Of a stretch of 32,195 nt of DNA, positions 7,573 to 25,374 are shown one piece after another. Source of the DNA: Candidatus Hydrogenedentota bacterium. GTDB lineage: Bacteria > Hydrogenedentota > Hydrogenedentia > Hydrogenedentales > GCA-2746185. The translations under genes were made by a program, and so were the position numbers. A model generated the notes under the pieces. It was not told the DNA's origin, did not search any database, and was given only the letters and a program-made list of their open reading frames with translations. How positions within the stretch are numbered: the stretch's first letter is position 1; each line of letters starts with the position of its first letter. The stretch spans positions 1 through 32,195 of the forward strand of contig JAPYPO010000007.1 of the NCBI GenBank assembly GCA_029937645.1, in the 5' to 3' direction.

Positions 7573-9153
7573 CTATTCCGCCTCCATCTCACGTTTGCCC
7601 GAGACGATGGCGTAAAATTTCTCTTCGCCTTCCGGGTTCGGCGTCGTCATGACGGAAAATAGGGGAACGGCTACCAGGGGCAGTAGCGTGGTCAAATACG
7701 AGGGATCCAACCCTGTGCCGGTACCCATAAAATCTCTGAAGAAAAGGTGTACGGTGCGCACGAGGAGACTCGAGCCTTCGGGCGCGGTGAAATCAACGGC
7801 CTCGGCCCAACGAATGAGCCCGTAAGCGATGATGCCGCCCGCATAGCCGACGATCATGCCCCAATAGGCACCGGGCTCGGTGGTTTTCTTATAGTAGATG
7901 ACGTAGCCGATGGCGATGGCGGGCGGTACAACCATCGCGAACCCAAAAAGTAGGATCTCCATAATGGTAAGAGGGGCATCCGCAATAGACCACAGGTAGG
8001 CCATGATCGCGGCGATAACTCCGTTGACAATGGTGGTAATACGGTAAGCGCGAAGCTTTTTTTGAGACGAATATTTTCTCGTGAAGGTAAGCCAATCGCG
8101 GACAATCATGGTCGAACTCGAAAGGAGTATCGGGCCGCCGGAGGAAATGACTGCCGCCAGAATCGCGGCGAGCGCAATGCCGCCGACCCACACATTAATT
8201 TCGGTTGGAAGGGCCGTGAGATTCTTGTAACCCCCGAGCCCTGGGTCGAGGCCCTTCGCGGCGAGCGTTTGCATGCCCACCAGCCCGGCGAGCAGCGGCA
8301 TGACGGAAGCGATGACGCCTGCGGCGAGAAAGGCGGGCAGGATCATCTTCTCCGAGCGTGCCGAGGTAGCGAAATTGGTATACACCGAGGCTGCGGGCGT
8401 GTGAATGGCCGACGAGAACACGAGCCCGAATACGGCAAAACCAGAGGCCCCCATAAAGCTCCACCAAATGGTCCCGTCCTTTCCAGCTTCGGCGAGGTGC
8501 GCGTCAATCTGCGCCGTCATCGCGTCCCAGCCGCCGAGGTGACCGATACCAAGATAGCCGACCAGGCCGAGCCCAATTAGGATTGTGGCGCAGTGGATGA
8601 GGTTTGTGGCCGCCGATCCCCACAGCCCGCCCAACGATATGTAGGTAATGAGAATGAGCGCGGCGATGGCCACGGTGACGTACATGGGCAAGCCCGTTAC
8701 GCCGGTAAGAATGATGCCGATGACGTAGGCTTCAATGACATTCACGAGGAAGTACTCGGTCTGGACGCAGAGGCTCGTGAGCGCTTGGCAGCGTGCCGAT
8801 CCAAAACGGTGCGCGAAGATTTCCCCTACGGTATGCAGCTTCAGGCGGCGAAACGGGACGGCGTAGAATCCGCCCACCAACGCCATGGCGATTATGGTGC
8901 TGATGCTGTACCACCACATGTTCCACATGCCGCCGCCGAGATCGCCGTTCATCACATTGCCCGCAACGCCATACGTCCCCCCGCCGCCGATGCGTGATCC
9001 GGCGACGCCGACGGTGACCATCAGCATGCTCATCCCGCCGCCGGCGACCGCCCAATCGCTTGAACTTCGCGTTCGGCGGGAAAGCGCCGCGCCCACGACG
9101 GTGACGACGACGAGGTAGGCGACGATGATGGCGAGGGGTATGTACTCTTCCAT
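7573..9153 (-). CDS. Sodium:solute symporter (SSS) family transporter
   Basis: Multi-TM 526 aa; Gly-rich segment in TM1-2 (GGGMSMLMVTVGVAGSRIGGGGTYGVAGNVMNG) and internal TM pattern of SSS proteins. Confidence 0.88.
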   Translation of the reverse strand: MEEYIPLAIIVAYLVVVTVVGAALSRRTRSSSDWAVAGGGMSMLMVTVGVAGSRIGGGGTYGVAGNVMNGDLGGGMWNMWWYSISTIIAMALVGGFYAVPFRRLKLHTVGEIFAHRFGSARCQALTSLCVQTEYFLVNVIEAYVIGIILTGVTGLPMYVTVAIAALILITYISLGGLWGSAATNLIHCATILIGLGLVGYLGIGHLGGWDAMTAQIDAHLAEAGKDGTIWWSFMGASGFAVFGLVFSSAIHTPAASVYTNFATSARSEKMILPAFLAAGVIASVMPLLAGLVGMQTLAAKGLDPGLGGYKNLTALPTEINVWVGGIALAAILAAVISSGGPILLSSSTMIVRDWLTFTRKYSSQKKLRAYRITTIVNGVIAAIMAYLWSIADAPLTIMEILLFGFAMVVPPAIAIGYVIYYKKTTEPGAYWGMIVGYAGGIIAYGLIRWAEAVDFTAPEGSSLLVRTVHLFFRDFMGTGTGLDPSYLTTLLPLVAVPLFSVMTTPNPEGEEKFYAIVSGKREMEAE

Positions 9154-9207: not shown

Positions 9208-10245
9208 CTACAGAGTGGGGGCGTCGTCGAGGGGATAGCGCCGGATGTCGCGGTTTGCCTTGGCGACGATGATGAGGAGGCGTTCCAGTTCAGCATAGTA
9301 CGCGTCCGGCTCGATGCTCTCCTTCTCGCGCTTGAGCTGAAATATCAGGTCGAGTGTCTCCACATAGGTATTGATTAACTCCTGCGGCACCGTGGGATCG
9401 AAGCTGTATTCCTTCAGGTAGGTCACGGCCGCAAGGATTCCATCAGAACCCTCTTCACGGATGTCGCTTTCCCCGAGTCCTTCGATAGGGAGCCTGGTGC
9501 CTAAGCCGTCGCCGTTGTCATCGAGGATGGCATGCTCCGTCGCGATAAGGCCCTCGCCCACGAACCACGCGTTGGTCAATTGCGTCGCGTAATGGGCGGC
9601 TTCGATGATCGTGATACGCTCGTCTCGGTTGCCGTCAGCGCTGCCGCTTTCCAGCCCCTCGATGAAGAACTCCATGAACTCGGTGGCGTTAATTTCGTCC
9701 ACCCCCTTCGTGGCCGAGAGGATAACCCGGTCGGGCCCACTCACGCTGTTAATAAACCCTGCGCCGCTGGAGATGGCGACAACGAGGACAATGCGCCGCG
9801 CGGAAATCGCATCAAGCCGATCGGCGAGGTCGCCCGCCGTGAGATCGCGCGAGGGGATATGCAGCTTCGTGTCCCGCTTGAAGTGACTGCCGTGTCCAAT
9901 GAGGTAAACGTAGAGATCGTCCTCGGGCTGAACGCGTTTGGAAAGCGCGTCGAACGCTTGGTAAATCGTATCCAGGGAGATGGTGGATTCCGGTTGGGAT
10001 GGCCCCTCGAGAGGTTCTGCAAGCGGGGTGACATTTTCTTTGGGAATGGACAATTGTTGGGTGAGCGCTGTGTAGAGGCGCGAGTTCCATTCCTGAAATT
10101 GCTGTTGATAGAACTCTTCGCCACCGCTTCCGGAGAGGATGAGATGGTGCGACGCCGCCCCCGCCAATCCCGGAGCAAGAGCGCATAGGGCGATCGTAGC
10201 GGACAGAATTGCGATGGGAAAGCGCTTCCAGATGAACCGGCTCAT
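9208..10245 (-). CDS. Secreted C13/caspase-like (CD-clan fold) protein, predicted catalytically inactive
   Basis: Signal peptide; LYVYLIGHGSHF His-Gly motif; RRIVLVVAISSGAGF aligns to the A-C-x-S-G catalytic loop with Ile at the Cys position; EF-hand-like DGNRDERITIIE. ATG overlaps the upstream stop (ATGA). Confidence 0.75.
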   Translation of the reverse strand: MSRFIWKRFPIAILSATIALCALAPGLAGAASHHLILSGSGGEEFYQQQFQEWNSRLYTALTQQLSIPKENVTPLAEPLEGPSQPESTISLDTIYQAFDALSKRVQPEDDLYVYLIGHGSHFKRDTKLHIPSRDLTAGDLADRLDAISARRIVLVVAISSGAGFINSVSGPDRVILSATKGVDEINATEFMEFFIEGLESGSADGNRDERITIIEAAHYATQLTNAWFVGEGLIATEHAILDDNGDGLGTRLPIEGLGESDIREEGSDGILAAVTYLKEYSFDPTVPQELINTYVETLDLIFQLKREKESIEPDAYYAELERLLIIVAKANRDIRRYPLDDAPTL

Positions 10246-12662
10246 GCGCGGCCCCTCCTACGACGTAAATACCATTCCAGGGCCAGCATGGCCACGAGGG
10301 CGATGTAAAAGCCGGGGAGGGGCCAGATATGGAGGATTACCTCCTCGGCGTCCTCACGGTCGGGCAAGGGAATGCGTTCGGGCAGTGTCGCGATTTCGCT
10401 GAGATCGACGAACGCGCCCCCTGTTGATTCGGCCAAGTCGCGGAGGAAATCAGGATTATACTTAGCCATCTGGAATTCACGCCGATCCGGCTCGACCAGA
10501 AAGGCTTCGGTGAGGGTGCCAACGACTTCGTCCTTTTCGTTCAGAGACGAGAGCACCAAATTGTAAACGCCGGTTTCCTCGGGCGTGAAACGGCTGGAAT
10601 AGAGCCCCGCCTCTTGGATGGATTCATCCACAGAGAGCGCGAGTTCCTGGTTGTTCGGACTTGTCAGCGTGACGCTCGTGCGCAGGCCTTCCCGCCGGTC
10701 GAAGTTATCGTCGCGAATGATAAAGTCGAGATCGATAGGGGCACCTTGCGCATAGACATCCTGCTTGCCGCGCAGAAACGTAGGCTCCGGCGCATCGTGA
10801 ACGAGATTACGGACCACCTGCCGCCACAGCCGCTCGTGTCGGTCATCGTCCGCGTCGAGCCGCATTTGCCATTGCCAGGTGTCGCTCGTCGCCAAGATGG
10901 CGCATTTGCCTTCCCCGTAACGCTGGACCGCAAACACGGGGCGCGCGCCTTCATCGGATCCAGCGACGAAGGCTTCGGCCATTACCGTCGCGCCGGGGCG
11001 CAGCACCGGAAAGAGGTCGAGCCCGAAGAGCTCGGGCATTTCCGCCCAGAGCTGCATGTCTGACTGTTCGTCCGTATCCAAGGCCCAAGAGCCCCCGAGG
11101 CGGCCTTCCACCGTGGGACGCGCGGAGAATAATGTCCTCTCTCGAATCGAAGGATCATTCGCGGACTGATGCAACACGACGGGAAGCATGCCTTCCAGGA
11201 GGCTGCCTGCGTAGTCCCCGTTGGTAAAGGATTTCGGGCCACCCAAAACCAGGAGGGCCCCGCCACGCTTTTCGACGTAGTCGCGGGTTACCTCCATTTG
11301 CGTGTTGTTGAAATAGGGCTTTTCGACGTCGCCCCAGATAATGAGATCGTACCCAAAGAGTTCCTCGGCGGTGACCGGGTAGCCCGACTTCACCTCCGCC
11401 GCATTCTCGCCGATGGCGACGAACACCGCTTCGTCGTACCGGGGCGAATCGATGTCGTCGCTAAACCCCTCGAGCAGCGGGTTCACCACCGACGTTTCTT
11501 TCCCCTTGAATTCAAACTTGCGATCCGCCGTGGAAATGCAAATAAGCGTAGTCATCTTGAGTTGCTGCCTGTCCGGCCACAAGGCATTGCGGACGAATTT
11601 ATTCTCCCAGTTCGGGCGGCCCGACACGTAGAGAATCTGGTATTCCTTGTCCCGGTTGTCGACCACAAAGCGCCGCATGTTGTTTTCTTTGATACGGTCC
11701 TCAGGGATGGCCTCGCCCTCCGGTTCGGGCGTGGATTTGATGAGGCTCACCCGCGCCTCGTATTCGAGCCAGCCGGGGCGGTCGGGGATAAATTCGAGGC
11801 GCACCTGCTGGTCTTGACGATCTTCAGAGATCGAAATGCGCTTAGACTTGACCACCCGTACGCCATTGATTACTGCTTCAACCAACGCTTCGCGACCCGC
11901 GAGGCCTGTGGAATGAATATCGATATCGAGCACGACCGGGCTCTTGTCGAAATCGGTTCGGTTGACAGAGATGCGGCCCAGCTCTACATCGCGCCAGTTC
12001 GAAACCGAATCGACGCCCACCGTGAATACGGGCGCCGTGTCCGGCAAATCTTGGATCGCGACAAAATCATTGGAAGTCTGGTAGACGCCGTCGCTGAAGA
12101 CGATGATGGCGGACACATGGGTGCCTTCCATATCGGCAAAAGCCCGGGCCACGCCGCCGGTGAGGTCGCTCTCCCGCTGGTCAAATTTCAGATTGTTCAC
12201 CGATTGCAGCGCTTCGATGCCCGCGCCCAAGCCGTAGCGGGCCACCTGATGCTTGCGCCGAAGTTCACCTTCGAATTCCGCAGACACCGCCGCGTACGAT
12301 TCGAGGAGGCGCGCTCCCCGGGATTGGCCACTTTGCCCTTCGATATTCATGCTCTGCGAGTCATCGAAAAGGAGCAGCACGAACTGCTCGCCCGGACGGA
12401 TCCGCTCCGCGACGATAGACGGGTCGAGGGCGATGAACAAGGCGATGACAATGACGGCAACGCGAAGGAAGACCAGAAAAATACGAGTCTGTTTTTCCAC
12501 TCCATCCAGGCGCCGCCAATAGTACAGGGCCATGCCGACGCCCGCCCCTGCAATCAGCAGTAGGCATAGGAACCACGGCAGCGGAACATTAAATCCGAAA
12601 CGCGTGGGCGTGAGATCATCCGCGCCGTTTCCCGCGAGCCACTCGGTAATTCGTTCGAGCAC
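10242..12662 (-). CDS. Membrane protein with vWA domain and glutamine-amidotransferase-like domain
   Basis: TM helices at both ends; MIDAS-like FVLLLFDDSQSMNI; GATase1-like segment YDLIIWGDVEKPYFNNTQMEVTRDYVEKRGGALLVLGGPKSF. GTG start 2 nt after the upstream TAA (TAA-ac-GTG) preferred. Confidence 0.82.
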   Translation of the reverse strand: MLERITEWLAGNGADDLTPTRFGFNVPLPWFLCLLLIAGAGVGMALYYWRRLDGVEKQTRIFLVFLRVAVIVIALFIALDPSIVAERIRPGEQFVLLLFDDSQSMNIEGQSGQSRGARLLESYAAVSAEFEGELRRKHQVARYGLGAGIEALQSVNNLKFDQRESDLTGGVARAFADMEGTHVSAIIVFSDGVYQTSNDFVAIQDLPDTAPVFTVGVDSVSNWRDVELGRISVNRTDFDKSPVVLDIDIHSTGLAGREALVEAVINGVRVVKSKRISISEDRQDQQVRLEFIPDRPGWLEYEARVSLIKSTPEPEGEAIPEDRIKENNMRRFVVDNRDKEYQILYVSGRPNWENKFVRNALWPDRQQLKMTTLICISTADRKFEFKGKETSVVNPLLEGFSDDIDSPRYDEAVFVAIGENAAEVKSGYPVTAEELFGYDLIIWGDVEKPYFNNTQMEVTRDYVEKRGGALLVLGGPKSFTNGDYAGSLLEGMLPVVLHQSANDPSIRERTLFSARPTVEGRLGGSWALDTDEQSDMQLWAEMPELFGLDLFPVLRPGATVMAEAFVAGSDEGARPVFAVQRYGEGKCAILATSDTWQWQMRLDADDDRHERLWRQVVRNLVHDAPEPTFLRGKQDVYAQGAPIDLDFIIRDDNFDRREGLRTSVTLTSPNNQELALSVDESIQEAGLYSSRFTPEETGVYNLVLSSLNEKDEVVGTLTEAFLVEPDRREFQMAKYNPDFLRDLAESTGGAFVDLSEIATLPERIPLPDREDAEEVILHIWPLPGFYIALVAMLALEWYLRRRRGRA

Positions 12663-12664
12663 GT

Positions 12665-15600
12665 TTAGCGGGTTCCTTCGGATTCGGACAAGCCGGTAAA
12701 GTAGTCGGCGACCCACGCCTTGAAGCGTTCGGGAATTTCGCCTTCGTCAGCCATGATGAATTCTTGCTCATCGAGAAGTTTTTGAATGTCGCGTTGCAAC
12801 TGATCCGCCGTTTCCACCAATGGTTTTTGCACCACATCAAGGAACAAGTCGAACCGCGGCGCCTTACTGTTGCTGCGGTACTGGCGGCGCATATTTTCAA
12901 TTTGTTCACGGGCACGCGCTATCTGCGTCCGGTATTCGCTATCCTGGGGGAGCAGAGACTCCGCATTCCGCAGCTCTTCCAGCCAACCGCGGTAATCATT
13001 CTGTATGAAGCCGTCCATATCGAAGGCCGGGATGGGCCCGTTGTCCGACCAACCGCCGGTCCTGTCCCCACCAAACCGACGGGCGCCGCCGCTGGACCCT
13101 CTCTGATTGTTACCGCCCTGCTGTCCTTGCTGACCCTGCTGTCCTTGCTGACCCTGCTGTCCTTGCTGACCCTGTTGGCCTTGTTGCCCCTGTTGACCTT
13201 CTTGCCCCTGCTGGCCTTGTTGCCCCTGTTGACCTTCTTGTCCCTGTTGACCTTCTTGTCCCTGTTGACCTTCTTGCCCCTGCTGACCGTCTTGCCCCTG
13301 CTGACCTTGTTGCCCCTGCTGACCTTCTTGCCCCTGCTGACCTTCTTGCCCCTGCTGACCGTCTTGCCCCTGCTGACCGTCTTGCCCCTGCTGACCTTCT
13401 TGCCCCTGCTGACCGTCTTGCCCCTGTTGACCTTCTTGTCCCTGTTGGCCAGCAGTCACACGCTCAAGTGCTTCGAGGGCGAGCTGCATCCCTTCCAACT
13501 CGCTTTCCACGATCGATTGAGCGACTTGGTGGAGCTTTTCGGCAGCGCCATCAAGTTTTTCAGCAATTTTTTCTTCTTCACCGATAGCCGTATCCCACAC
13601 TTCGTATTTGATGTAGGGCATCGTTTCGATGATGTCCTCATAGATGCCTTCGCGGCTCGTCTCGCGCAGCCAGTCATTGAGTTCATTCGTCATCAACTCT
13701 TGCGTCTGACGCCCACGCTCGGCGAGTTCGCCCGCTTCATTCATCATCTCGCTGAAATCTTGCGCGAGTTGTTCCTTTCGTTCGACAAGTTCCTGCTTAC
13801 GCTCGTCCAGGTCATCTCCAATATCGAAGTTCGGGATATTGTGTTCCTTCTGAAATTCCCCCGCCTGCTGAACAACCCCATCCTGAGCCTGCTGCAATTC
13901 TTCCATCTGCTCGATGATTTCTTTCATCCGTTGCGCTGCCGCCTCCCGGCCGAATTGCCGCAACTGGCTCTGGATATCATCCAGGGGTTGGGTGGCGCGG
14001 TTCCCGGAGGCCTGCGCCTGCTGGTAGCGGTCATCTTGAAGGTGATCGAGAGCGCGGTTCATATGCTCACGCGATTCTTCGAGGCCCTCACGCGCCTGGC
14101 GGGTTTGTTCGGGACTCATCCCCTCAGTGGCCAGGTCTTGCCGTACCTCATCCAAGCGGTCGAGATTTTTCTGCTGCTCGTCTTCCAAGCGTTCCAGCTT
14201 GCGGCGAATCTCCTCCTTCTCTTCCTCCGTCTTCGCGTTTTGGAGTTCCGAGATGAGGCGTGCGATTTCCTCGTCGATCAATTCTTGGCGTTGCGCAAGC
14301 TCCGAAATCTTTTTCAGGAACTCGTCGGCCGCTTGCTGTTGCTGCTCTTGCCCGACCCTGTTTTCCTCTTCATAAAAATTCTTGTTTCGAGACATTTCAA
14401 GCGCAGAAATATCAGGGCGCTCCTGACTGCCTCCGCCACCCTCGCCTTTGCCGCTGCTTTGCGTCACTTCGCTCCGGTCAGGCTTCATCTTCAGAAGTAG
14501 GCGATAGGATACGTTTTGATTTACGAGTGCTTCGGACAGCGCGGTTTCCGGCTCAGGCATCTCCGATTGCTTAAGGATATTGGCCGACTCGCTCATTGCC
14601 TTGCCAAGGCGGATGCTTGCCGGGCTCGGGGTGCCCGCCTCCCTGTTTCTCTTGGACACTTTGTTTTGAAGCTTCTCTTGCGTCTCGACGATCAGGTCGC
14701 GCCGTTCGTTAAAGACCTTTGGCTCGATAAAGGGCGCTTCGCCGCGGAGGTTCCACGTCGCGATAATGATTTGCTTTTGGACCTTCGTGTCTTCGTCCTC
14801 TTGCTCACCGCCTTTGCCGCTGCCGCCATCAGACACGACTTCTTCATAGCGCTTGCGGAACGGTCGGATTTCCAGGAAGAATGGATCGCCGAGCAGTTCA
14901 AACTCGCTGCGACCCGGCTTCGCGTCCTTCGCCCAGACGGTCCACGTAATAAAGTCGCCCACCTCAAGGTCGAGGGTTTCAAGCTCGATTTCGTGTTCGC
15001 CCTCCGCATCGTTCAGCACGGCGTCCGACTCATTCAACGCCAGGCGCACCGGCTCGCGACCCGAGATTTCATAAAGCAGTCCATATTCCTTAAAGCCGTA
15101 GTCATCCGTTACCTTGAATTCAAAAGGGACCTCCTCCAGCATTGTCACTTCGCTATCGCCCCTGGGAAATCGTATCCGGATATCCGGCGGTCTGTCGCGA
15201 TCGATCGCGATGGCGTACCGCGGATTGTATTCGCTGGGCTCCTCTTGCAAGTCGACCAGCTCGATGTGGTATTTATCGTTCCTCGTCAACTCAATCGATG
15301 TGGTCCAGAGGGCTTCTGAGGTTTCCACCAGCGAAACGCGTGTGCCGCTGCCGAGCACCATTTCCGCGCTCGCGAGCTTCTTATTGACCCAAAAAGACAT
15401 GGCCACCTGGCTGCCTTCGATGCCAGAAACGTTGCCGCTGTTGGGCACTTCCCGTGGCTCTCGCTCCAGGTATTCGGGAAAGGTGTACAGGAGATCGATC
15501 GAGGTTACCTCGGGCGGTGTCCACGCGGTCAACTCGAAAGTCGCCGACCGCTTCCTGCCAAACTGGACGTCGTACTCGATATCGGTTTGCACATCGGCAA

Positions 15601-16354
15601 AGAGGTACATGTATATGTTTTCCGACGGGCTGCGCTCCATTTCGCTGACCTGCCAGTCCCCGCCGGCCATGCGCCATCGAAGCTGCACTTTATTATTCAG
15701 TTTGTCCGATCGTACCCATATCGTTTGATTGTCCCCGCGGCGGACGCGGGCGTTACCAGGCTCAACCGTGAAGGGCAGTGCCGTGCGCCGCGCCAACTCA
15801 TCGGGGATGACGCCGATTGTGGGCATCCAAAAATTGCTGAAGAGGACTACCGTGCCCGCAGACAAGGCCAGCAACACGGCAGCGGCTGCACCGAACGTAA
15901 ATACAGGCGTGGTGTCGAGTACATCGGAGAACGACACCTTGCGGACGATCGGGGTTGTTTCTTCCAGGAACTGCTGAATGATCCACGGGGAATCGTCGGC
16001 ATGACCACCGGCACTGAATTCCACCGCGCTGGCGATACGGTTTTCCAATTCCGGGTGCTTTTCGTCGATGAACAGCGCTACCTGCTCCGTCGTGATGGGG
16101 GTACGCATGGGAAGGAATAGCCAACGCCACGCCGCCACCGCCTCGCACAGAGAAAAGGCCGCGAGGAAATACCTGGCCGTGTCGTCGCCCCGCGGCACGA
16201 ACGCCAGCATGAGGGTGAAAAGGAACGTCAGGGCGAGCGTGGCCACGCCGAAGCGCGCCCAACTTCTCAGGGCGCGGTTTCGCCTGCATTGGCGCGCCAC
16301 TTCCTGAATGCGCAGCCCAAGCTCTGGATGTAATTTCGTGGAGCCTTTTCGCAT
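12665..16354 (-). CDS. DUF4175-like large membrane/coiled-coil protein with Gly-X-Y hexapeptide repeats
   Basis: N-terminal TM pair, HPELENRIASAVEF-type motif, long Glu/Gln-rich coiled-coil, QGQ repeat tract; start MRKGSTKLHPELG has a good RBS (AAGGAG). Confidence 0.82.
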   Translation of the reverse strand: MRKGSTKLHPELGLRIQEVARQCRRNRALRSWARFGVATLALTFLFTLMLAFVPRGDDTARYFLAAFSLCEAVAAWRWLFLPMRTPITTEQVALFIDEKHPELENRIASAVEFSAGGHADDSPWIIQQFLEETTPIVRKVSFSDVLDTTPVFTFGAAAAVLLALSAGTVVLFSNFWMPTIGVIPDELARRTALPFTVEPGNARVRRGDNQTIWVRSDKLNNKVQLRWRMAGGDWQVSEMERSPSENIYMYLFADVQTDIEYDVQFGRKRSATFELTAWTPPEVTSIDLLYTFPEYLEREPREVPNSGNVSGIEGSQVAMSFWVNKKLASAEMVLGSGTRVSLVETSEALWTTSIELTRNDKYHIELVDLQEEPSEYNPRYAIAIDRDRPPDIRIRFPRGDSEVTMLEEVPFEFKVTDDYGFKEYGLLYEISGREPVRLALNESDAVLNDAEGEHEIELETLDLEVGDFITWTVWAKDAKPGRSEFELLGDPFFLEIRPFRKRYEEVVSDGGSGKGGEQEDEDTKVQKQIIIATWNLRGEAPFIEPKVFNERRDLIVETQEKLQNKVSKRNREAGTPSPASIRLGKAMSESANILKQSEMPEPETALSEALVNQNVSYRLLLKMKPDRSEVTQSSGKGEGGGGSQERPDISALEMSRNKNFYEEENRVGQEQQQQAADEFLKKISELAQRQELIDEEIARLISELQNAKTEEEKEEIRRKLERLEDEQQKNLDRLDEVRQDLATEGMSPEQTRQAREGLEESREHMNRALDHLQDDRYQQAQASGNRATQPLDDIQSQLRQFGREAAAQRMKEIIEQMEELQQAQDGVVQQAGEFQKEHNIPNFDIGDDLDERKQELVERKEQLAQDFSEMMNEAGELAERGRQTQELMTNELNDWLRETSREGIYEDIIETMPYIKYEVWDTAIGEEEKIAEKLDGAAEKLHQVAQSIVESELEGMQLALEALERVTAGQQGQEGQQGQDGQQGQEGQQGQDGQQGQDGQQGQEGQQGQEGQQGQQGQQGQDGQQGQEGQQGQEGQQGQEGQQGQQGQQGQEGQQGQQGQQGQQGQQGQQGQQGQQGQQGGNNQRGSSGGARRFGGDRTGGWSDNGPIPAFDMDGFIQNDYRGWLEELRNAESLLPQDSEYRTQIARAREQIENMRRQYRSNSKAPRFDLFLDVVQKPLVETADQLQRDIQKLLDEQEFIMADEGEIPERFKAWVADYFTGLSESEGTR
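13115..13450 (-). repeat. 18-nt tandem repeat encoding 18 x GQQGQ[E/D/Q] plus GQQG (112 codons)
   Basis: Read directly from the sequence; three perfect 18-nt copies CTGTCCTTGCTGACCCTG at 13121-13174 on the + strand. Confidence 0.95.
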
Positions 16355-16410
16355 AGTCCCGCTCCTTGCTATCGGTAAACCCTTCAACGGGAGGGATCGG
16401 TTCCAATCAA

Positions 16411-16451: not shown

Positions 16452-18575
16452 TTACCCTTTTAAGGCAGACATATACCAACTCTCAAGAAGGAGTAATAAA
16501 ACTAAGAAAACCAAGAAATACCTTCCGTATTCCGTGCGGACGATAAAGTCACTCGGCGCGCCACTGATGAGCGCATCCATATCCTCATCCAAAGCCAATG
16601 GAGCCGACGAAAGCTTCAGCTCGAATTCCGCTAGAGATACGGGCGTCGGGTCGCCTTCGCTGGGAACAACATTGACCGCGTCCACCTGAAGCCAGTCTCC
16701 ATCCGTCGTCGTCCGCGTCCGAAAGAAGCCCGCGTGCCGGAGCAGCAGGTTCGCGTTCGCACCGACATCCTCCAGAGTTACTTCCACCGGCTGATCGAGT
16801 CCGGGGGCGGAGATAACCGTAATCCCTGCCTCGTCGAAGACCACCGAGTCGGCCCCGACGCGCTGGGCCACATTCCAGGTTACATCAGCCTCTTGGAATC
16901 CGCTCAGATAGGAAAGCGTTTGGTACAGCAATGGCACGAAGCGGGCGGTTTTGGGGAGGTTCGTCCAATCCAACAATACCGCGAAGGGCCAGATGACCAC
17001 GCGCCCCTCGCCGACGCGCGCCTCGACCATCGCGGGCGAGTCGTCGTCGAACCGGGCCAGGACCCGGAGGTCCTCGGTGTCCTCGCCGATGTCCATGGTG
17101 TAATGGTTGTGGAAGCGTAGCGACGAAAAATCGTTGAACCGGGCCCCGGCAAAGGGCACGAATATTTCATGCTCAAAGTTGAGCCAGGCAAGGACCTCGT
17201 AGCGCGATTCGCGTTGCGCATCGTGGCGAAGCCCGGTGATCGGCGCGCCGATGGGCGACAAGAGCAGCTCGTTAAGTCGCTCATAATCCGTGCCTTCGTC
17301 AAGGGTCAGGAGGAGTTGCCCGCCATTTCTCGTAAATTCGAGCAACTGTGCTGCCGTTTCCTGACGCAGCCCGTCGAGGCCGCTAACAATGATCACGGCT
17401 GGCCTCTGCGCAGGATTGCCGAGGGCTTCCGGCAGTTCGATTTGCGACGCGACACTGGCGACCCAGGGAATATCCAATCGTTTGGGCAGCGCTCTGCTCA
17501 TGAACATAGCCGAAGGATATACCAGGCCGGGCTTCTCGTCGGCGAGAATCAACACATTCCGCTTGCGCGGTGGGTTCCAGGTGAAGTAACGCACGTTATC
17601 CGGCGTCACGCCATCGCCGGTGAGCTGGAGGCGGCCCTCCAGCGGATCGTTGGTCGTCACATCGAAGGTAAACGACGTTTGCGAGGCATTGCCGCCCTTC
17701 ACATCCAGCACGTTTGCGGCCTGCTCTACGCCGCCCAAAATCATCTTGATTTCCAATTGGTCCGCATCGTCCTCGGACCAGTTCTTTACTTTGCCCAAAA
17801 TCCGGAGGCCACCGTCCTGCATTTTCTTGAGGCCCACATCGGTCAGCGCATAGTTCACCGTGTCGCCGTATTCCACCTGAACGGTCTTCAACTGAATTCC
17901 CGGGGAAAGCTTCCAGCCAGTATATTGCTCCGGCATGCCGTTTTTCTGGAAATCGGAGATCACATACAAAATCTTGCGGGTGGAGGCCCCCGATTCCTCG
18001 TCGAGCCCCGCCGTCAGGAGTGCCTGCGCGTGTTGCAGGGCCGGCAGGTACGCCGTGTTTTCATCCGTCAATTCCGCGCTTTGGATGGCGAGGCGGGCGC
18101 GATCATGCGATCCGACTTCGGGGTCGGATTCGGATTCGATGGCGGCGGCAGTCGTGTGCGAACGGCCGAATACCACGACGCCTACGGGTTCCTCTTCGGG
18201 GATATCGCCGAGAATGGACAGGGCTTCGGCCTTCGCTTCGTCGAAGGCGCCGCCCGCGCCCATGCTGTACGACGCATCGACCAGGATGAGGTGGCGAAGG
18301 GGGCCATCGTTGACGTCGAAGGCCGCAGGGGCCGTCCAGAAAGGCCGTGAGAAGGCGAGGGCCAGTAGCAAGAACAACAACATGCGTAGCAGCATAAGCA
18401 GGATATGCTGGAGCTTGCGGCGCTCGATAACCTCCTTCGGAATATTGGGAATAAAGAGAATGCTACTGAAGGCCAGGGGCTCCCGTTCGGGCCGCCGGAT
18501 TTGGTGGATGAGGAAGGGCGCGGCGAGCAACGCGACGCCGCCAAAAAAGAACGGGGCTAGAAACGAAAGGCCCAT
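16452..18575 (-). CDS. BatA-domain/vWA-domain membrane protein
   Basis: N-terminal BatA-type region (FLAPFFFGGVALLAAPFLIHQIRRPEREPLAFSSILFIP); MIDAS DASYSMG, T in ENTAYLPAL, D in YVISDFQ; C-terminal TM. ATG overlaps the DUF58 stop (TGATG). Confidence 0.88.
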   Translation of the reverse strand: MGLSFLAPFFFGGVALLAAPFLIHQIRRPEREPLAFSSILFIPNIPKEVIERRKLQHILLMLLRMLLFLLLALAFSRPFWTAPAAFDVNDGPLRHLILVDASYSMGAGGAFDEAKAEALSILGDIPEEEPVGVVVFGRSHTTAAAIESESDPEVGSHDRARLAIQSAELTDENTAYLPALQHAQALLTAGLDEESGASTRKILYVISDFQKNGMPEQYTGWKLSPGIQLKTVQVEYGDTVNYALTDVGLKKMQDGGLRILGKVKNWSEDDADQLEIKMILGGVEQAANVLDVKGGNASQTSFTFDVTTNDPLEGRLQLTGDGVTPDNVRYFTWNPPRKRNVLILADEKPGLVYPSAMFMSRALPKRLDIPWVASVASQIELPEALGNPAQRPAVIIVSGLDGLRQETAAQLLEFTRNGGQLLLTLDEGTDYERLNELLLSPIGAPITGLRHDAQRESRYEVLAWLNFEHEIFVPFAGARFNDFSSLRFHNHYTMDIGEDTEDLRVLARFDDDSPAMVEARVGEGRVVIWPFAVLLDWTNLPKTARFVPLLYQTLSYLSGFQEADVTWNVAQRVGADSVVFDEAGITVISAPGLDQPVEVTLEDVGANANLLLRHAGFFRTRTTTDGDWLQVDAVNVVPSEGDPTPVSLAEFELKLSSAPLALDEDMDALISGAPSDFIVRTEYGRYFLVFLVLLLLLESWYMSALKG

Positions 18576-19516
18576 CAAGTCGTCCCTCCAGCCGTGTTAC
18601 GGCGCTGCTTCAAGCTGGTCGTCATGAGCGCGTGCGCACGATGCCGCAAGAAAAAATATAGTGCGCGATCAAGAGGTTCATCGGTGGTAAATTCAGCAAG
18701 GTCAATTTCCGAAGCGAGACATTCCTGGCGGAGGAGCGCGAAGTGGCTTTCCCGGTTCTCAAGGTATTGCTCGCGGACCGTGTCCGGAACGGCGTACTGT
18801 TCGCCGCCGCTCTCCATATCGACGAAGGTGGTCGTCCGCTCGAAGGGAAAGGTTTGCTCTGCCGTGTCGCTGATTTGTATGACGAGCACATCGTGGCGGC
18901 GGGCGCGCAGCGACTTGAGATGCTTGATCGTTTCTTCGACCGGGTGGAGAAGATCCGAAATGAGGACCACCATGCCACGCGGCTGCAACACGTCACCCAA
19001 ATAATGAAGCGCGCCCGTGGCATCCGTCTGTCCCGCCGCATCGAGATTGTCCAAGTCCACCAGAATCCGATTGAGGTGATGCGGAGCCGTGCGCGGTGGC
19101 ACATAGTCCAGCAACGCTTCGTGGTGCGCGATGAAGCCAACGGCGTCGCGCTGCTTGTGGAGGATCATCGCCATACACGCCGCCAGCATGCGCGCGTACT
19201 GAAACTTATTCAAATCGCCCGAGCCGTAGCCCATGGAGGCGCTACAATCGAGAATCAGGGTACAGCGCAGATTCGTTTCTTCCTGGAATTGTTTGATGTG
19301 CAGGCGGTCGGTGCGGCCGTAGAGGTTCCAGTCGATGTGCCGCGGATCATCGCCCTGGGTATAGGGGCGGTACTGGGCGAACTCGATGGACGACCCCGAA
19401 TGCGGGCTTCGGTGCAGGCCGGACAACATCCCCTCGACAACCGTGCGCGCCAAGAGCTGGAGATCGGCGATCTTCGCAAGTTGAGCGGGATCGATAGAAC
19501 TCAAAGTGGGTGCCAT
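18575..19516 (-). CDS. DUF58 domain-containing (vWA-like) protein
   Basis: HSGSSIEFAQYRPYTQGDDPRHIDWNLYGRTDRLHIKQFQEETNL signature followed by LILDCSASMGYG. Confidence 0.93.
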   Translation of the reverse strand: MAPTLSSIDPAQLAKIADLQLLARTVVEGMLSGLHRSPHSGSSIEFAQYRPYTQGDDPRHIDWNLYGRTDRLHIKQFQEETNLRCTLILDCSASMGYGSGDLNKFQYARMLAACMAMILHKQRDAVGFIAHHEALLDYVPPRTAPHHLNRILVDLDNLDAAGQTDATGALHYLGDVLQPRGMVVLISDLLHPVEETIKHLKSLRARRHDVLVIQISDTAEQTFPFERTTTFVDMESGGEQYAVPDTVREQYLENRESHFALLRQECLASEIDLAEFTTDEPLDRALYFFLRHRAHALMTTSLKQRRNTAGGTT

Positions 19517-19565: not shown

Positions 19566-19658
19566 TAGAGCATCTTAAGCAATTATGAATACGCATCTAC
19601 TTGTTGCGGCGTCGGCTGGCGGCGTATCTTCGCATCCATAATTAGTTAAAATGCTCTA
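19566..19658. mobile_element. Candidate MITE-like element or long hairpin, TA...TA bounded, about 28-bp terminal inverted repeats
   Basis: TAGAGCATCTTAAGCAATTATGAATACG versus reverse complement of the right end TAGAGCATTTTAACTAATTATGGATGCG; 23 of 28 identical, 4 more become G:U pairs in the minus-strand transcript. Confidence 0.6.
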
Positions 19659-20723
19659 GAGGCCTGATTTCGGCTGAGGAACAGCTTCCAACAACTTTTG
19701 GATGATGTCTTCCACGCTAGCGTGATCGGCTTCCGCCCGGAAATTGGTCAATATGCGGTGCCGCAGCACAGGCCCGGCAATGGCTTGTATATCGCTTATT
19801 GAAACATGGTAACGGCCCTGCAGCAGCGCCCGGGCTTTCGCGCCCAGGATCAGGTTTTGCGAGCCACGCGTACCGGCGCCCCAACTCACCCAGTCCTTAA
19901 TAAAGTCATAGGCCTCGGGGCGGTCCGGGCGGCTCGCCTGGCACAGATTGACCGCGTAGCGTGCCACTGGTTCCGCGATGGGAACCATCCGCACCAGCCG
20001 TGCGAAGGCCGTCATATCCTCACCCGAAAACACGCTTTGCGGCGCATCTTTGTGCGTCGAGGTCGTCGTCGTCGCCACCGTCAACTCGTCCGCTTCACTC
20101 AGGTAATCAATTCGAATGTTGAGCATAAAGCGGTCGAGCTGGGCCTCCGGCAGGGGGTACGTGCCCTCCAACTCGATGGGGTTCTGCGTGGCCAACACGA
20201 AAAAAGGTTTCTCAAGTTCGCGTACATCGCCCGCGACCGTAACCTGCCGCTCCTCCATCGCTTCGAGGAGCGCCGCTTGCGTCTTTGGTGGGGTCCGGTT
20301 TATTTCGTCAGCGAGCAGGATGTTCGTGAATACCGGGCCTTCGATAAAGCGCAATTCGCGGTGGCCCGTTGCGCGGTCCTCGTCGATAATCTCCGTGCCC
20401 GTGATATCCGAGGGCATCAGATCCGGCGTGAATTGAATGCGCTTAAACTTCAAATCGAGGATCTGCGAGATGGTCCTTATCAGCAGCGTTTTCGCGAGGC
20501 CGGGCGCGCCCGTGATTAAGCAGTGGCTGCCCGAGAAGAGAACGATCATGAGTTCGTCGATGACCTGTTCCTGCCCAACGATAACGCGCCGAATCTCGCC
20601 AAGCATTTTGTCGCGCCCAGCCTTCAGGCGCTCGAGAGCCTCTTGCTCGAAGGCGGATTCATCTTGAACGGGCAGCGCGGGAGGCGTCGCCGGTGTTTCT
20701 TCCGGTTGAAGATTCGCTTCCAA
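19656..20723 (-). CDS. MoxR-family AAA+ ATPase
   Basis: Walker A GAPGLAKT, Walker B ILLADEINRTPPKTQAALLEAMEERQVT, sensor FVLATQNPIELEGTYPLPEAQLDRF. Confidence 0.95.
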   Translation of the reverse strand: MEANLQPEETPATPPALPVQDESAFEQEALERLKAGRDKMLGEIRRVIVGQEQVIDELMIVLFSGSHCLITGAPGLAKTLLIRTISQILDLKFKRIQFTPDLMPSDITGTEIIDEDRATGHRELRFIEGPVFTNILLADEINRTPPKTQAALLEAMEERQVTVAGDVRELEKPFFVLATQNPIELEGTYPLPEAQLDRFMLNIRIDYLSEADELTVATTTTSTHKDAPQSVFSGEDMTAFARLVRMVPIAEPVARYAVNLCQASRPDRPEAYDFIKDWVSWGAGTRGSQNLILGAKARALLQGRYHVSISDIQAIAGPVLRHRILTNFRAEADHASVEDIIQKLLEAVPQPKSGL

Positions 20724-20796: not shown

Positions 20797-21651
20797 CTAA
20801 TGCGTCATTGCGTATACGACGATATTAATGCCCATGGGATAGGCTTTCGGGACCGAGATGGCTTGGAAATAATCCTCCCGTTCGCCCTCTCGCTCCCAGC
20901 CATCACCCAAGTCCGTGTTGTGGCAAACGATGACCATGAGGCGACCGTTCTTGTCGTGAATGCCTTTGTAGTGCGGCACGCGAGAATCGTACCCCTTCTC
21001 GCTCGTGTCGCCGCCCGAGCTGACCCAATAATTAATGGACGGCACCTGGGGGAATTCGTCCAGCTTGAACACAATATTGAATACGGGGTGATCGAGCGTA
21101 AGATCTTTCATCTCATATTCGATCGGATCGAGCACATTGCTAATCTGAATAAGCCAGTTCAGCCACTCATCTTCACCCCAGAAATCGTCGACCATGAGAA
21201 ATCCGCCCCGCAGCAAATAGGAACGCAAGGCTGTGGCTTCCTCCTCGGAGAATACGAGCCTACCGACTTCCAGCATGTAGATGAATGGATAATCGAAGAG
21301 CGTCTCGTCGGTGAGATCGACCACGACATGCTTAGGGTCGCCGTTTTCCTGGTGCTCGATTTTGATGGTCGTGAGCTGTTCCAAGCGGATCGGAAAGTTG
21401 AGATCGGAGGCGGGGTAGTCTGTATCCCAATTGAAGCCATACCCGTAGCTGCTGTAGCGCACCCGGGCGAAGGTGAAGGCGCCGGTGGGGAAAATGTCGC
21501 GCTCCGGCTGGCGGATAGGGTAGCCCCGACCGCCAAAACCGAGCCTGCTGCCGCGCTGCGCATCGGCGGCGGAGGACAGCAACAACAGGAATACTCCCGT
21601 GAGGGCCACTGCGGCGCCAATCAGGCAATATGTGCGGGTTCGATAAGTCAC
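20797..21651 (-). CDS. DUF4159 domain-containing protein
   Basis: Signal peptide/TM; FARVRYSSYGYGFNWDTDYPASDLNFPIRLEQLTTI and LRSYLLRGGFLMVDDFWGEDEW typical of DUF4159. GTG start overlaps the upstream TAG. Confidence 0.85.
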   Translation of the reverse strand: MTYRTRTYCLIGAAVALTGVFLLLLSSAADAQRGSRLGFGGRGYPIRQPERDIFPTGAFTFARVRYSSYGYGFNWDTDYPASDLNFPIRLEQLTTIKIEHQENGDPKHVVVDLTDETLFDYPFIYMLEVGRLVFSEEEATALRSYLLRGGFLMVDDFWGEDEWLNWLIQISNVLDPIEYEMKDLTLDHPVFNIVFKLDEFPQVPSINYWVSSGGDTSEKGYDSRVPHYKGIHDKNGRLMVIVCHNTDLGDGWEREGEREDYFQAISVPKAYPMGINIVVYAMTH

Positions 21652-24395
21652 TACTTGAAGTCGGGCAGAGAAGCCTCTCCACCCGATCCCTCTTGGTCTT
21701 GTTCAACAGGCGCTTCTGGATTGAGATTCGGTTCCGACCCGCCGGCCTCCCCGACCGGATCGATGAGTTCCAACAACAACGCTTGCGCATCCCAGAAGTT
21801 GGGGACATTTTCAAGCACTCTAACCACTTCCGCGCGCGCGGGCGCAGTTTCACCCAAGTCACGGTAGATCCGCGCGCGGTGAAGGCGGTGATCGATCGCG
21901 TGGGCGCTGTCGAGATGGGCGAGCACGTTGAGCGGCCGGAGGGCTTCCTGTTCGCGCGCGGAATTCAGCAGCCCTTCGATGTAGGCTTCATGGAAGCCCT
22001 TCTCATAGGGGTCGATTCCCAGCGCCCAGTCGGCGATGCGCGCCACTTCATTCCATTTGCCATTGGCCGAATAAATTTCGATAAGTTCTTCAGACGCCGC
22101 CAGCTCAGCGGGCGACGACCCGAAAATCTCAAGTAAGGTTTCCGTTAACGCTTCGGCGCGCTTCGTATGCCTATACAACTCCGCCAACAGAAAGAGGGGC
22201 GCCTGTTCGCCCAGTAAGTCGGGAAAGAGCTCGTGCGCTTCCTTGAGCGCGGCTTCCGCTTCGTCCCAGCTTTCTTGCGTCAGGGCTTCCTGGGCCTTCC
22301 GCATGGCGACGGCGAAGGGCGCATCCTCCGGGGACGGCGTGTCCTGGATGCGTTCCATGAGTTTCTCGACCAGACCCGGGCCGCTGGCCAAGTGGCCTTC
22401 CGGGAGTTCCACCTGGGGGAGGTTGTCGAAGGGCTTGACCCGTTCGGCCAGATGGTCCTGATAGCCGCGGTCAAGCTCGCGTGGAGGTTCGCCGCTTGCT
22501 TCAGCGAGGGCCCGCACAGCCTCTGCTCCCTCGCCGATGGCGTCCAGCGCCGTATTCATGGCCGTCATACCGAATGCCGCCGTGTAATATTCCACAAACT
22601 CGCCCGCGGCGAAGTAGCCGAACATCAGATGGTTGGGTGACTTGGGCTCCAGGAAGAAGTTCGTCAGGTCGCGCACGCGCAGCGCGTCTTCCGTGGCGAG
22701 AATCACACGGAAGTCCGGGTCCAATTTAGAACGCCACGCCGGCGAGTATTGATGCTCTTCGTAGACGGAGATGCCCTCGGACAACCAGCGGGGCATCAGA
22801 TTATTCGTCTTTTGCAGCGTGATAACATGCATAAATTCGTGCCAGAGGACCGAGCGCCAGTTCCAGGAACCGCGGGGCCGCGCGGAAGGCGAATCCATCG
22901 TGACCAACTGGCCAAAACAGATGCCGAGGTGCCCTGCGTTGCCCGGCAAGCCGACAGAGCGCACCATGAAGTCATCGTGTTTGTCGAACATTTCGATGAG
23001 CACGGGCTTCGTCAAGTCAATAGCGTATTTGGCCTCAAAAGTTTCAATAGCCTGGTCGAGGAGACCGAGGGCGTCTTCCGCCAGCAGGTCTGCTTCGTGC
23101 GCAGGGAGCCGCAGAACAAACGCGCCGCGCTCGATGGTCGTGAAGGTTTCCAGCGTGTCCATCAAACTAATAAGGTTGAACAATTGAACGTTGTACGGGT
23201 CTTCCTTGAAGGCCCATTCCAGCTCCGCGCGCCCTTCGACTTCCTTGCCCAGGCGCAGCAAGTCCTGCGTATAGTAGCCGCGGGCTTCATAGTCGTCGGG
23301 ATCAAGCTCCAACGCTTTCTCTTGGAAGGCCGCGCCCTCGGCAAAGCGGTACTGACGCGAAGCGATACGGCCCGTTGTCCGCAAGATTTCGCTGGATACC
23401 TGGTTGATGGCCGATCCAACAAGCTGGGTGCGGGCCATGGCTTCGGCTTCCGCCTCGACGAAATGGGCGGCGGACTTGAGGGCGAGGAAACGCAAGCTCT
23501 TCGGGTTGATGGCAAGCGCTTCGCCGATAAGCTTGAGGGCTTCTTTGCCCTTCGCCCGGTCGAGGAGCAATTCCACCTGGATGGCCCTCGCCCGCGGATT
23601 ATTTGGATTGAGATCCAGGATCCGTTGGAGCATCGGGTCGAGCCGCCCGTCGTGCGATTTCCAATAGCACTCCGCGAGGCCTACCAGCGCTTCCTGCAAT
23701 TGCTGGGGCTTGGGTTTCTCTTCGAGGGCGGCATCGAACCGTTTCGCGGCCACATCGTAATTCCCCTTCCGATAGGCCAAGCCGCCCGCGCCCAAGTGGA
23801 CCACCGCCAAGCGCGGATCTCGATCATTCTCCGAAAGGGGCTCATAAATCTGAGCCATGATGTCCTTCGGGTTCAGCTTGGCTAATTCGTAGACCCGTGC
23901 CATCGCCACCGCATTCTCGTTGCGGCGGTAATACTGCCAGTTGCGGCCGCTGCCATACCGAGATTCAGCCAGGCGCAGCATGCGCTCAAAATCGTCGTTC
24001 CGCCCCACATATTTATAGAAAAGGGCCAGCTCGACGCAGTACGCCGGCTCACGATTATCGTTGCACACCTCCTCCATTTTCTCGATGGCCTTGTCCAACT
24101 GACCATTTTCAAAACGGAGCCAGGCCAAGTCCCGCCGATCCGAGGTTTGCACGTAGCCCCTTGCATTCTCGATCGTGTCTTCCAACAGCGCCAGGGCTTG
24201 CGCGTATTCGCCGCGTGCCCAGAGCGATTCGTAGGATTCCTCCTCCTCCGCCTGCTGAGCCAGGGCCGACCCGAATAGGGGAGAAACGAGGAGGATAGCC
24301 GTAATGCAGAGGAAACGGACGCGTGCAGCGGCGTCGCAAATGCTCCGTAAAGCCGTAGAGAAATCAAAGGTTACGACATGCAGCCCTGTCGTCAT
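21651..24395 (-). CDS. TPR-repeat protein with gluzincin (peptidase MA-like) metalloprotease domain
   Basis: WHEFMHVITLQ zinc motif followed by LPRWLSEGISVYEE; TPR-like helices on both sides; signal sequence; ATG at 24395 with AAGGAG RBS preferred over the longer ORF to 24623. Confidence 0.85.
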   Translation of the reverse strand: MTTGLHVVTFDFSTALRSICDAAARVRFLCITAILLVSPLFGSALAQQAEEEESYESLWARGEYAQALALLEDTIENARGYVQTSDRRDLAWLRFENGQLDKAIEKMEEVCNDNREPAYCVELALFYKYVGRNDDFERMLRLAESRYGSGRNWQYYRRNENAVAMARVYELAKLNPKDIMAQIYEPLSENDRDPRLAVVHLGAGGLAYRKGNYDVAAKRFDAALEEKPKPQQLQEALVGLAECYWKSHDGRLDPMLQRILDLNPNNPRARAIQVELLLDRAKGKEALKLIGEALAINPKSLRFLALKSAAHFVEAEAEAMARTQLVGSAINQVSSEILRTTGRIASRQYRFAEGAAFQEKALELDPDDYEARGYYTQDLLRLGKEVEGRAELEWAFKEDPYNVQLFNLISLMDTLETFTTIERGAFVLRLPAHEADLLAEDALGLLDQAIETFEAKYAIDLTKPVLIEMFDKHDDFMVRSVGLPGNAGHLGICFGQLVTMDSPSARPRGSWNWRSVLWHEFMHVITLQKTNNLMPRWLSEGISVYEEHQYSPAWRSKLDPDFRVILATEDALRVRDLTNFFLEPKSPNHLMFGYFAAGEFVEYYTAAFGMTAMNTALDAIGEGAEAVRALAEASGEPPRELDRGYQDHLAERVKPFDNLPQVELPEGHLASGPGLVEKLMERIQDTPSPEDAPFAVAMRKAQEALTQESWDEAEAALKEAHELFPDLLGEQAPLFLLAELYRHTKRAEALTETLLEIFGSSPAELAASEELIEIYSANGKWNEVARIADWALGIDPYEKGFHEAYIEGLLNSAREQEALRPLNVLAHLDSAHAIDHRLHRARIYRDLGETAPARAEVVRVLENVPNFWDAQALLLELIDPVGEAGGSEPNLNPEAPVEQDQEGSGGEASLPDFK

Positions 24396-24455
24396 GGGAA
24401 CTCCTTGTGGCGAATTCGCCAACAGCCTGAGGGGAGCAGCCGTACCGCCCCTCGT

Positions 24456-24491
24456 AACCTGTAGTTTCTCATGTACAGGTTGCTCTGTCAA
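24456..24491 (-). promoter_or_regulatory. Candidate promoter/operator of the 8-gene operon: TTGACA box (24486-24491) plus inverted repeat AACCTGTA-N10-TACAGGTT (24456-24481)
   Basis: Direct reading; 61-96 nt upstream of the preferred start of the first operon gene. The -10 box is weak. Confidence 0.45.
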
Positions 24492-24591
24492 TTTTAGTGG
24501 GCGACCCGCCTTGCCCCAAAGATGGTCTTGGGTCCGATCCCTTCTGGGCCCCAAAAAGTTCCGGCATCCTCGCCAGTTACGCCTACTCCTT

Positions 24592-25374
24592 CTACTTGAA
24601 GGCATCACGCAAGAACGATTCAACCCCGCGCATCTTCTTCCGGTAGAGAGTCGGATCCCCTTTCACCGCCACACCATCCAGGCGCAACGACTTGCGCGTA
24701 GGTGCGCGCCAATCTTCGGCATCGTATAACCCGAGGAGCGTGAAGCCCGCCTCATCCAGCGCTTTCCTAACTTCGTCCACCGTGTGAATCCGCTCCTCGA
24801 TGACCGATGGCAACTGTTGATTCACCGTCACAGCGGTTCGGGCGATCGAGGTCTTCCGGTCGAAAACGCCTTCCCACGAAGTAGAAAAACCGCCGTTCGA
24901 CTCGACCCACTTCCGGTTCTCGAAATGTTCCGTGACCATCCGCTCCGTGATGATGTCAAAATAAAACAACCCGTCGTCCGCCAACGACGTTGCAATTTCG
25001 CGTACGGCGACGCGCAAGCCCTCTGCGGTCAACAAGAAATTCAGACTATCAAAGAGGCACGTCGCGTAGTCGAACTGGCCCACGACAGGAAGGCTCCGCA
25101 TGTCCGCCGCGGCCGTTACCGGAAGCGGCCCGGAGCGGCGGCCATTCCGAAGCATCGATTGCGAGATGTCCACGCCCATCGAATTCCACCCGTAGCGCAA
25201 CAGTTGCTTCATGAGGAGAGACGTGCCGCACCCGACATCCAGATGCGTGAATTGTTTCGTGGGGAAGAGTTCCGCGACCGCCGTTGTCACCACCAGCCAA
25301 CGGTCGTAATCTACGTCCGACATGATCGCGTCGTAGTAGCGCGCCAGATCGGAAAAGGGCTCGGAGATATTCAT
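24592..25374 (-). CDS. Class I SAM-dependent methyltransferase, YqeM-like
   Basis: HLDVGCGTSLLMKQL, MGVDISQSML, CLFDSLNFL; N-terminal YYDAIMSDVDYDRW; ATGA overlap with the upstream HD gene. Confidence 0.85.
   Translation of the reverse strand: MNISEPFSDLARYYDAIMSDVDYDRWLVVTTAVAELFPTKQFTHLDVGCGTSLLMKQLLRYGWNSMGVDISQSMLRNGRRSGPLPVTAAADMRSLPVVGQFDYATCLFDSLNFLLTAEGLRVAVREIATSLADDGLFYFDIITERMVTEHFENRKWVESNGGFSTSWEGVFDRKTSIARTAVTVNQQLPSVIEERIHTVDEVRKALDEAGFTLLGLYDAEDWRAPTRKSLRLDGVAVKGDPTLYRKKMRGVESFLRDAFK

Follow-up and report, generated by a model that had tools for sequence, protein, structure and literature searches.

MoxR-Bat operons are widespread and their job is unclear. When all bat genes of Leptospira biflexa were deleted, no growth, morphology or oxidative-stress phenotype was observed (PMC3557215). 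MoxR and vWA genes are also found in ternary conflict systems, in which the caspase effectors are mostly inactive and the third component is VMAP, iSTAND, FtsH or a beta-propeller (PMC7159879). The bacterial pseudo-orthocaspases carry a C14 p20 domain with the His-Cys dyad replaced, commonly by Tyr-Ser (PMC6426788), while MCA4 of Trypanosoma brucei is a metacaspase with a Cys to Ser change which is described as inactive but functional (PMC6657590). Caspase-fold pseudopeptidases are already known; a text search of the literature on DUF4159, DUF4175, DUF58 and C13 with MoxR found no description of the operon-linked, Cys-less family reported here, although a negative of this kind is weak evidence.

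The gene, its fold and the nucleophile position

The window (the whole stretch of DNA that was analysed, 32,195 nucleotides) contains at positions 9208-10245 of the minus strand an open reading frame predicted to encode a C13/caspase-like pseudopeptidase of 345 amino acids, in which the string LYVYLIGHGSHF was confirmed. An N-terminal signal peptide without a lipobox was recognised from the sequence (residues ~1-30 with a predicted cleavage site; 10156-10245, minus strand), and C21 within it is the single Cys of the protein. The ATG of the gene lies on the TGA of the upstream gene in an ATGA overlap (10242-10245, minus strand). The clan CD catalytic-His motif, G117-H118-G119, is located at 9889-9897 (minus strand), while the loop A157-I158-S159-S160-G161-A162-G163-F164 (9754-9777, minus strand) stands in place of D-A-C-x-S-G-G-F; it forms part of VVAISSGAGF, within which the codons GTC GCC ATC TCC AGC GGC occupy 9780-9763. 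A sequence-only reading of this DNA had described an unbroken frame translationally coupled to the upstream gene, these loop codons on the minus strand, an intact His-Gly motif, a secreted location and a sole Cys in the signal peptide (hence no alternative Cys nucleophile), all of which were borne out.

The AlphaFold (AF2) model of the protein (pLDDT 85.6, pTM 0.81) has the caspase-like alpha/beta/alpha fold of clan CD. When the model was compared to the PDB with Foldseek, legumains were the top matches (E 5.7e-8), followed by the GPI transamidase PIG-K, metacaspases and MALT1; metacaspases were also matched by the family profile. The match to Pfam C13 (PF01650) was sub-threshold (17.8 bits against a cut-off of 22.8, E 0.0026), and four other family members that were scanned all fell under the same cut-off, the best scoring 22.0 bits (L022). 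There was no match to C14 (PF00656) in the window protein, nor in its own genome using a profile search, and no match for the window protein in NCBIfam or in a PDB search with the single sequence. In the model, strand 3 (residues 110-117) ends at the HG motif, which puts H118 where clan CD carries its catalytic His, and this His was present in 135/135 homologues. Strand 4 (residues 151-158) is followed by helix 162-168, and the catalytic Cys of (A)-C-x-S-G after strand 4 is absent, with Ser159 found here and Cys in none of the 135 homologues. The sequence-only reading had predicted a dead protease of caspase/C13 type, and a caspase/C13 fold without the catalytic Cys is indeed a predicted pseudopeptidase.

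Its identification of the replaced residue did not stand. The reading had matched A-C-x-S-G to A157-I158-S159-S160-G161, thereby putting Ile at the Cys position, a register which is off by one. Because a gap of two columns lay next to the motif in a MAFFT alignment, the register was rechecked with, and taken from, profile alignments. Using a family profile (A1) built from 20 Cys-less members against all loci, the Cys of relatives (NPCHSG, NSCYSG, DACYSG) fell gap-free on Ser159, and hhalign of six Cys-bearing relatives against the family placed C on S159 (probability 99.9, E 1.4e-32), the profile-profile alignment at the slot being ARRIVLVVAISSGAGF over ANNIVSVMDQCYSGGF. Cys falls on Ser159 in both alignments. 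Strand 4 ends at residue 158, so that the nucleophile-bearing loop of this fold begins with Ser159, and the substitution is accordingly one of Cys by Ser159 (codon TCC; 9769-9771, minus strand). A change of Cys to Ile158 was ruled out by the two profile alignments and the model; Ile158 is the position before the slot. Gly161 replaces the Ser of C-x-S-G, a second change which the window protein has in common only with relative L004/L024.

Homologues, conserved residues and gene order

Homologues were drawn from the window's phylum, a whole-collection scan and samples of phyla taken around other hits, chiefly from metagenome assemblies, giving 165 distinct relatives that span the motif, 135 of which scored at least 200 bits. 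In these 135 the slot residue was Ser in 118, Thr in 12, Ala in 3, Pro in 1 and Glu in 1, while position 161 was Ser in 132, Gly in 2 and Ala in 1. Ser codons of the AGY as well as the TCN class were found at the slot, plus Thr codons able to link them. In each of the five members without a slot hydroxyl the VWA gene immediately precedes the gene and the His is retained. Orthologues in the same operon, where the sequence-only reading had proposed that the Cys position be examined, gave no Cys in the slot among 146 operon-linked homologues, which practically excludes a sequencing error. The local loss in one protein which that reading implied was thus not upheld, as none of the 135 close homologues, which span several phyla, has Cys in the slot: its loss is family-wide in the sampled homologues and not peculiar to the window genome. 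Having Cys in the slot would cost a sequence no more than a few bits, and such forms should therefore not be hidden from a profile of Cys-less sequences; the result applies to the sampled phyla, and operon-linked Cys forms may exist elsewhere.

At the thresholds used, a match was found in 15/68 genomes of the window's own phylum, 60/121 (phylum of G071), 37/149 (phylum of G072), 16/64 (phylum of G070), 13/119 (phylum of G075) and 7/115 (phylum of G076), fractions which rest on samples of each phylum and not on complete sets; most genomes holding the family have one copy. The record titles in the whole-collection scan, mostly of assembled metagenomes and some possibly wrong, were Hydrogenedentota/Hydrogenedentes, Omnitrophota, Acidobacteriota, Latescibacterota, Gemmatimonadetes, Planctomycetota and Verrucomicrobia. 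In a tree of 73 homologues the deep part was poorly resolved and the Cys-bearing outgroup lay on long branches, and no conclusion is therefore drawn on one versus several losses of Cys.

Over 157 close pairs, dN/dS (computed on model columns) had a median of 0.18 and a maximum of 0.33. Purifying selection on the family is clear and the gene is kept, in agreement with the earlier view of an intact frame that is maintained and not decaying. Near-invariant residues over 119 full rows were G39, G42, G117-H118-G119, D134, R173, T179, F190, D204, E215, E237 and D243, as well as G132, which is Ser in the window protein. The E237-HAILDDNGDG motif (9505-9537, minus strand) is conserved, and its LDDNGD is also seen in Cys-bearing relatives. 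An EF-hand-type loop, D204-x-N-x-D-x-R-I-T-x-x-E215 (9601-9636, minus strand), lies between helices 190-200 and 213-230 of the model, giving a helix-loop-helix, and its pattern (D-x-[DN]-x-[DNS]...E) was found in 135/135 homologues; residues 204-215 are accordingly a predicted Ca2+ site. Cys-bearing relatives also carry the loop, which is therefore not specific to the dead form and probably predates the loss of Cys.

Nine relatives have Cys in the slot (L095, L099, L100, L196, two in L188, L189, L199 and L039), one of which, L039, is a weak C13 match (YGACHSG) in the window's own genome. No operon gene was found near any of the nine in the flanks read, which were longer for L095 (about 8 kb), L099 and L100 (as L167, L168 and L172) and at most ~1.5 kb for the remaining relatives.

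The window gene lies at the end of a run of genes on the minus strand. The likely first gene of the cluster encodes a TPR protein with a Peptidase_MA-like domain (21651-24623) and is followed by genes for DUF4159 (20797-21651), a MoxR AAA+ ATPase (19656-20723; AAA_3 E 3.4e-63), DUF58 (VWA; 18575-19516), BatA/VWA (16452-18578), a DUF4175-like membrane protein (12665-16387) and the upstream partner (10242-12716), which combines a VWA domain (DDSQS) with a GATase1-like domain. The sequence-only reading had the gene ending the MoxR operon, which is correct in part: 54 bp beyond it, in the same orientation, lies a sodium:solute symporter gene (7573-9153), and a symporter comes next to the end of the operon in L021 as well. 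The VWA/GATase gene lies directly before 139 relatives, and before 132/135 of those with at least 200 bits, with a 4-bp overlap in 95/139 (taking the nearest in-frame start codon); some operon gene was near 146 relatives. The same operon slot was found in genomes titled Hydrogenedentota, Acidobacteriota, Latescibacterota, Planctomycetota, Verrucomicrobiota and others.

Further features of these operons were observed. In the VWA partner, the GATase1-like domain has LGG and no Cys at the nucleophile elbow in 16/16 aligned homologues, making it a second inactive-looking enzyme-like domain in the operon, and the DUF4175-like protein contains a long collagen-like Gln-Gly repeat region (QGQEGQQGQ). 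In L160, L165, L166, L169, L017 and L195, at the same operon slot, GQAN replaces GHGS and the loop is mostly LDCPGAG, so that both the His and the normal nucleophile are lost while the EF-type loop is largely kept; these six form one clade in the tree (support 99). In L161, L162 and L164, and also L121 and L126, a Cys lies one residue past the slot (PCSG, SCSG, TSCSG), and the PCSG/SCSG versions adjoin DUF4159. The occurrence of several inactive-looking sites at the operon position agrees with a binding role. Two fusions were also seen, one of the caspase-like domain to DUF3857 and a transglutaminase core beside MoxR-DUF58-BatA (L174:5709-8333, minus strand) and one to TPR repeats (L162:7797-11609).

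Proposed role and alternative explanations

The protein is most probably an ancestral secreted, Ca2+-binding pseudopeptidase which would be a subunit with a binding function in a MoxR-VWA (Bat-type) complex of the envelope, the binding role, the partner and the calcium being the conditional parts of this proposal. The absence of Cys from all operon-linked relatives across several phyla suggests a long-ago re-use for binding and not cutting, and a slot occupied variously by S, T, A, P and E, together with a fixed His, fixed acidic residues, a fixed Ca2+-type loop and a nearly constant VWA neighbour, fits a binding pseudopeptidase. On this proposal the protein would belong to an ancient family of exported pseudopeptidases with the C13/caspase fold of clan CD, mostly present as one copy per genome and encoded at the end of MoxR-DUF58-BatA-DUF4175-VWA/GATase operons. 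The window protein would be unable to cleave peptides, would hold Ca2+ through residues 204-215 and could retain a peptide or partner in the former substrate groove. Gene order suggests that it acts in a complex with the VWA and MoxR proteins, possibly as a subunit of an envelope assembly which the cytoplasmic MoxR ATPase and membrane-bound VWA proteins would assemble or regulate.

The site is under more constraint than its full abandonment would need, with Ser or Thr in 130/135 homologues and an invariant His. This is as expected if Ser159 (Thr in some) and His118 were a working dyad of a Ser/Thr-nucleophile hydrolase or transferase on a caspase fold, in which case the position of Ser159 at the end of strand 4, that of the nucleophile in the model, and the use of AGY and TCN Ser codons with linking Thr codons, as if the hydroxyl were kept, would also be explained. 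However, Ala, Pro and Glu also fill the slot, in operon-linked members that are otherwise unremarkable and retain the His, which makes such a nucleophile unlikely; the window protein has in addition lost Ser161, and inactivity is reported for T. brucei MCA4, a clan member with a natural Cys-to-Ser change (PMC6657590). An enzyme of this kind is considered improbable, and its fuller version, a living Ser/Thr159-His118 enzyme, perhaps Ca2+-controlled and serving the envelope MoxR-VWA complex, slightly more so.

It is a little less probable again that the protein without Cys inhibits an active C13-type peptidase of the same cell or acts as its decoy. Some genomes of the phyla surveyed do contain Cys-bearing relatives, the window's own genome with L039 among them, and inactive caspase effectors have been proposed as dominant negatives in MoxR-vWA conflict systems (PMC7159879); few surveyed genomes have a Cys-bearing close relative, however, and the Cys-less form is almost always in a MoxR-type operon. 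Finally, a loss that is recent or restricted to one lineage, or else a gene in decay, in the window genome only (a one-codon sequencing error included) might be read from Gly161, where nearly all homologues have Ser, and from a loop more changed than most, but was rejected by the homologue survey and has a negligible probability given the uniform lack of Cys, the intact frame and the low family dN/dS.

Comparison with known systems

The binding pseudopeptidase proposed here resembles Peptidase C13 of clan CD (legumain, PIG-K) in its fold, HG histidine motif, nucleophile-loop position and sub-threshold Pfam match, and differs in lacking the catalytic Cys, in scoring below the Pfam cut-off and in having an EF-type loop, a C-terminal helical hairpin and a MoxR/Bat operon. 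It is also like the Cys-bearing secreted bacterial C13-like proteins (L095, L188, L189, L196), which have the HG motif and the EF-type loop, with an LDDNGD-like stretch shared by L095, L188 and L189 and the hhalign match given above; unlike the window family, these four retain C-x-S-G, and no operon gene was found in the flanks that were read around them. Within clan CD the window family seems to represent an old branch in which Cys is lacking throughout. That a secreted pseudopeptidase is constantly present and coupled to a VWA gene across several phyla points to extracytoplasmic binding of a peptide or partner in the job of MoxR-Bat operons, and a search for the ligand could begin with this single small, soluble protein.

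T. brucei MCA4 is likewise a clan CD Cys-to-Ser pseudopeptidase, with its biological function kept (PMC6657590), but is a eukaryotic metacaspase with an unrelated genomic context. The pseudo-orthocaspases are caspase-fold pseudoenzymes in which Cys is often replaced by Ser (PMC6426788); they belong to C14 p20 and usually have His changed to Tyr, whereas in the window family the His is invariant, no C14 match was found and the dyad is His-Ser and not of the Tyr-Ser type. The MoxR-vWA ternary conflict systems also combine MoxR and VWA genes with inactive caspase-fold domains (PMC7159879). None of VMAP, iSTAND, FtsH or a beta-propeller was among the Pfam matches of the window operon genes, the MoxR protein matching bpMoxR weakly beside AAA_3; in contrast to the conflict systems, this operon has the standard MoxR-DUF58-BatA-DUF4175 order, and the pseudopeptidase is a constant, signal-peptide-bearing component of it across distant phyla.
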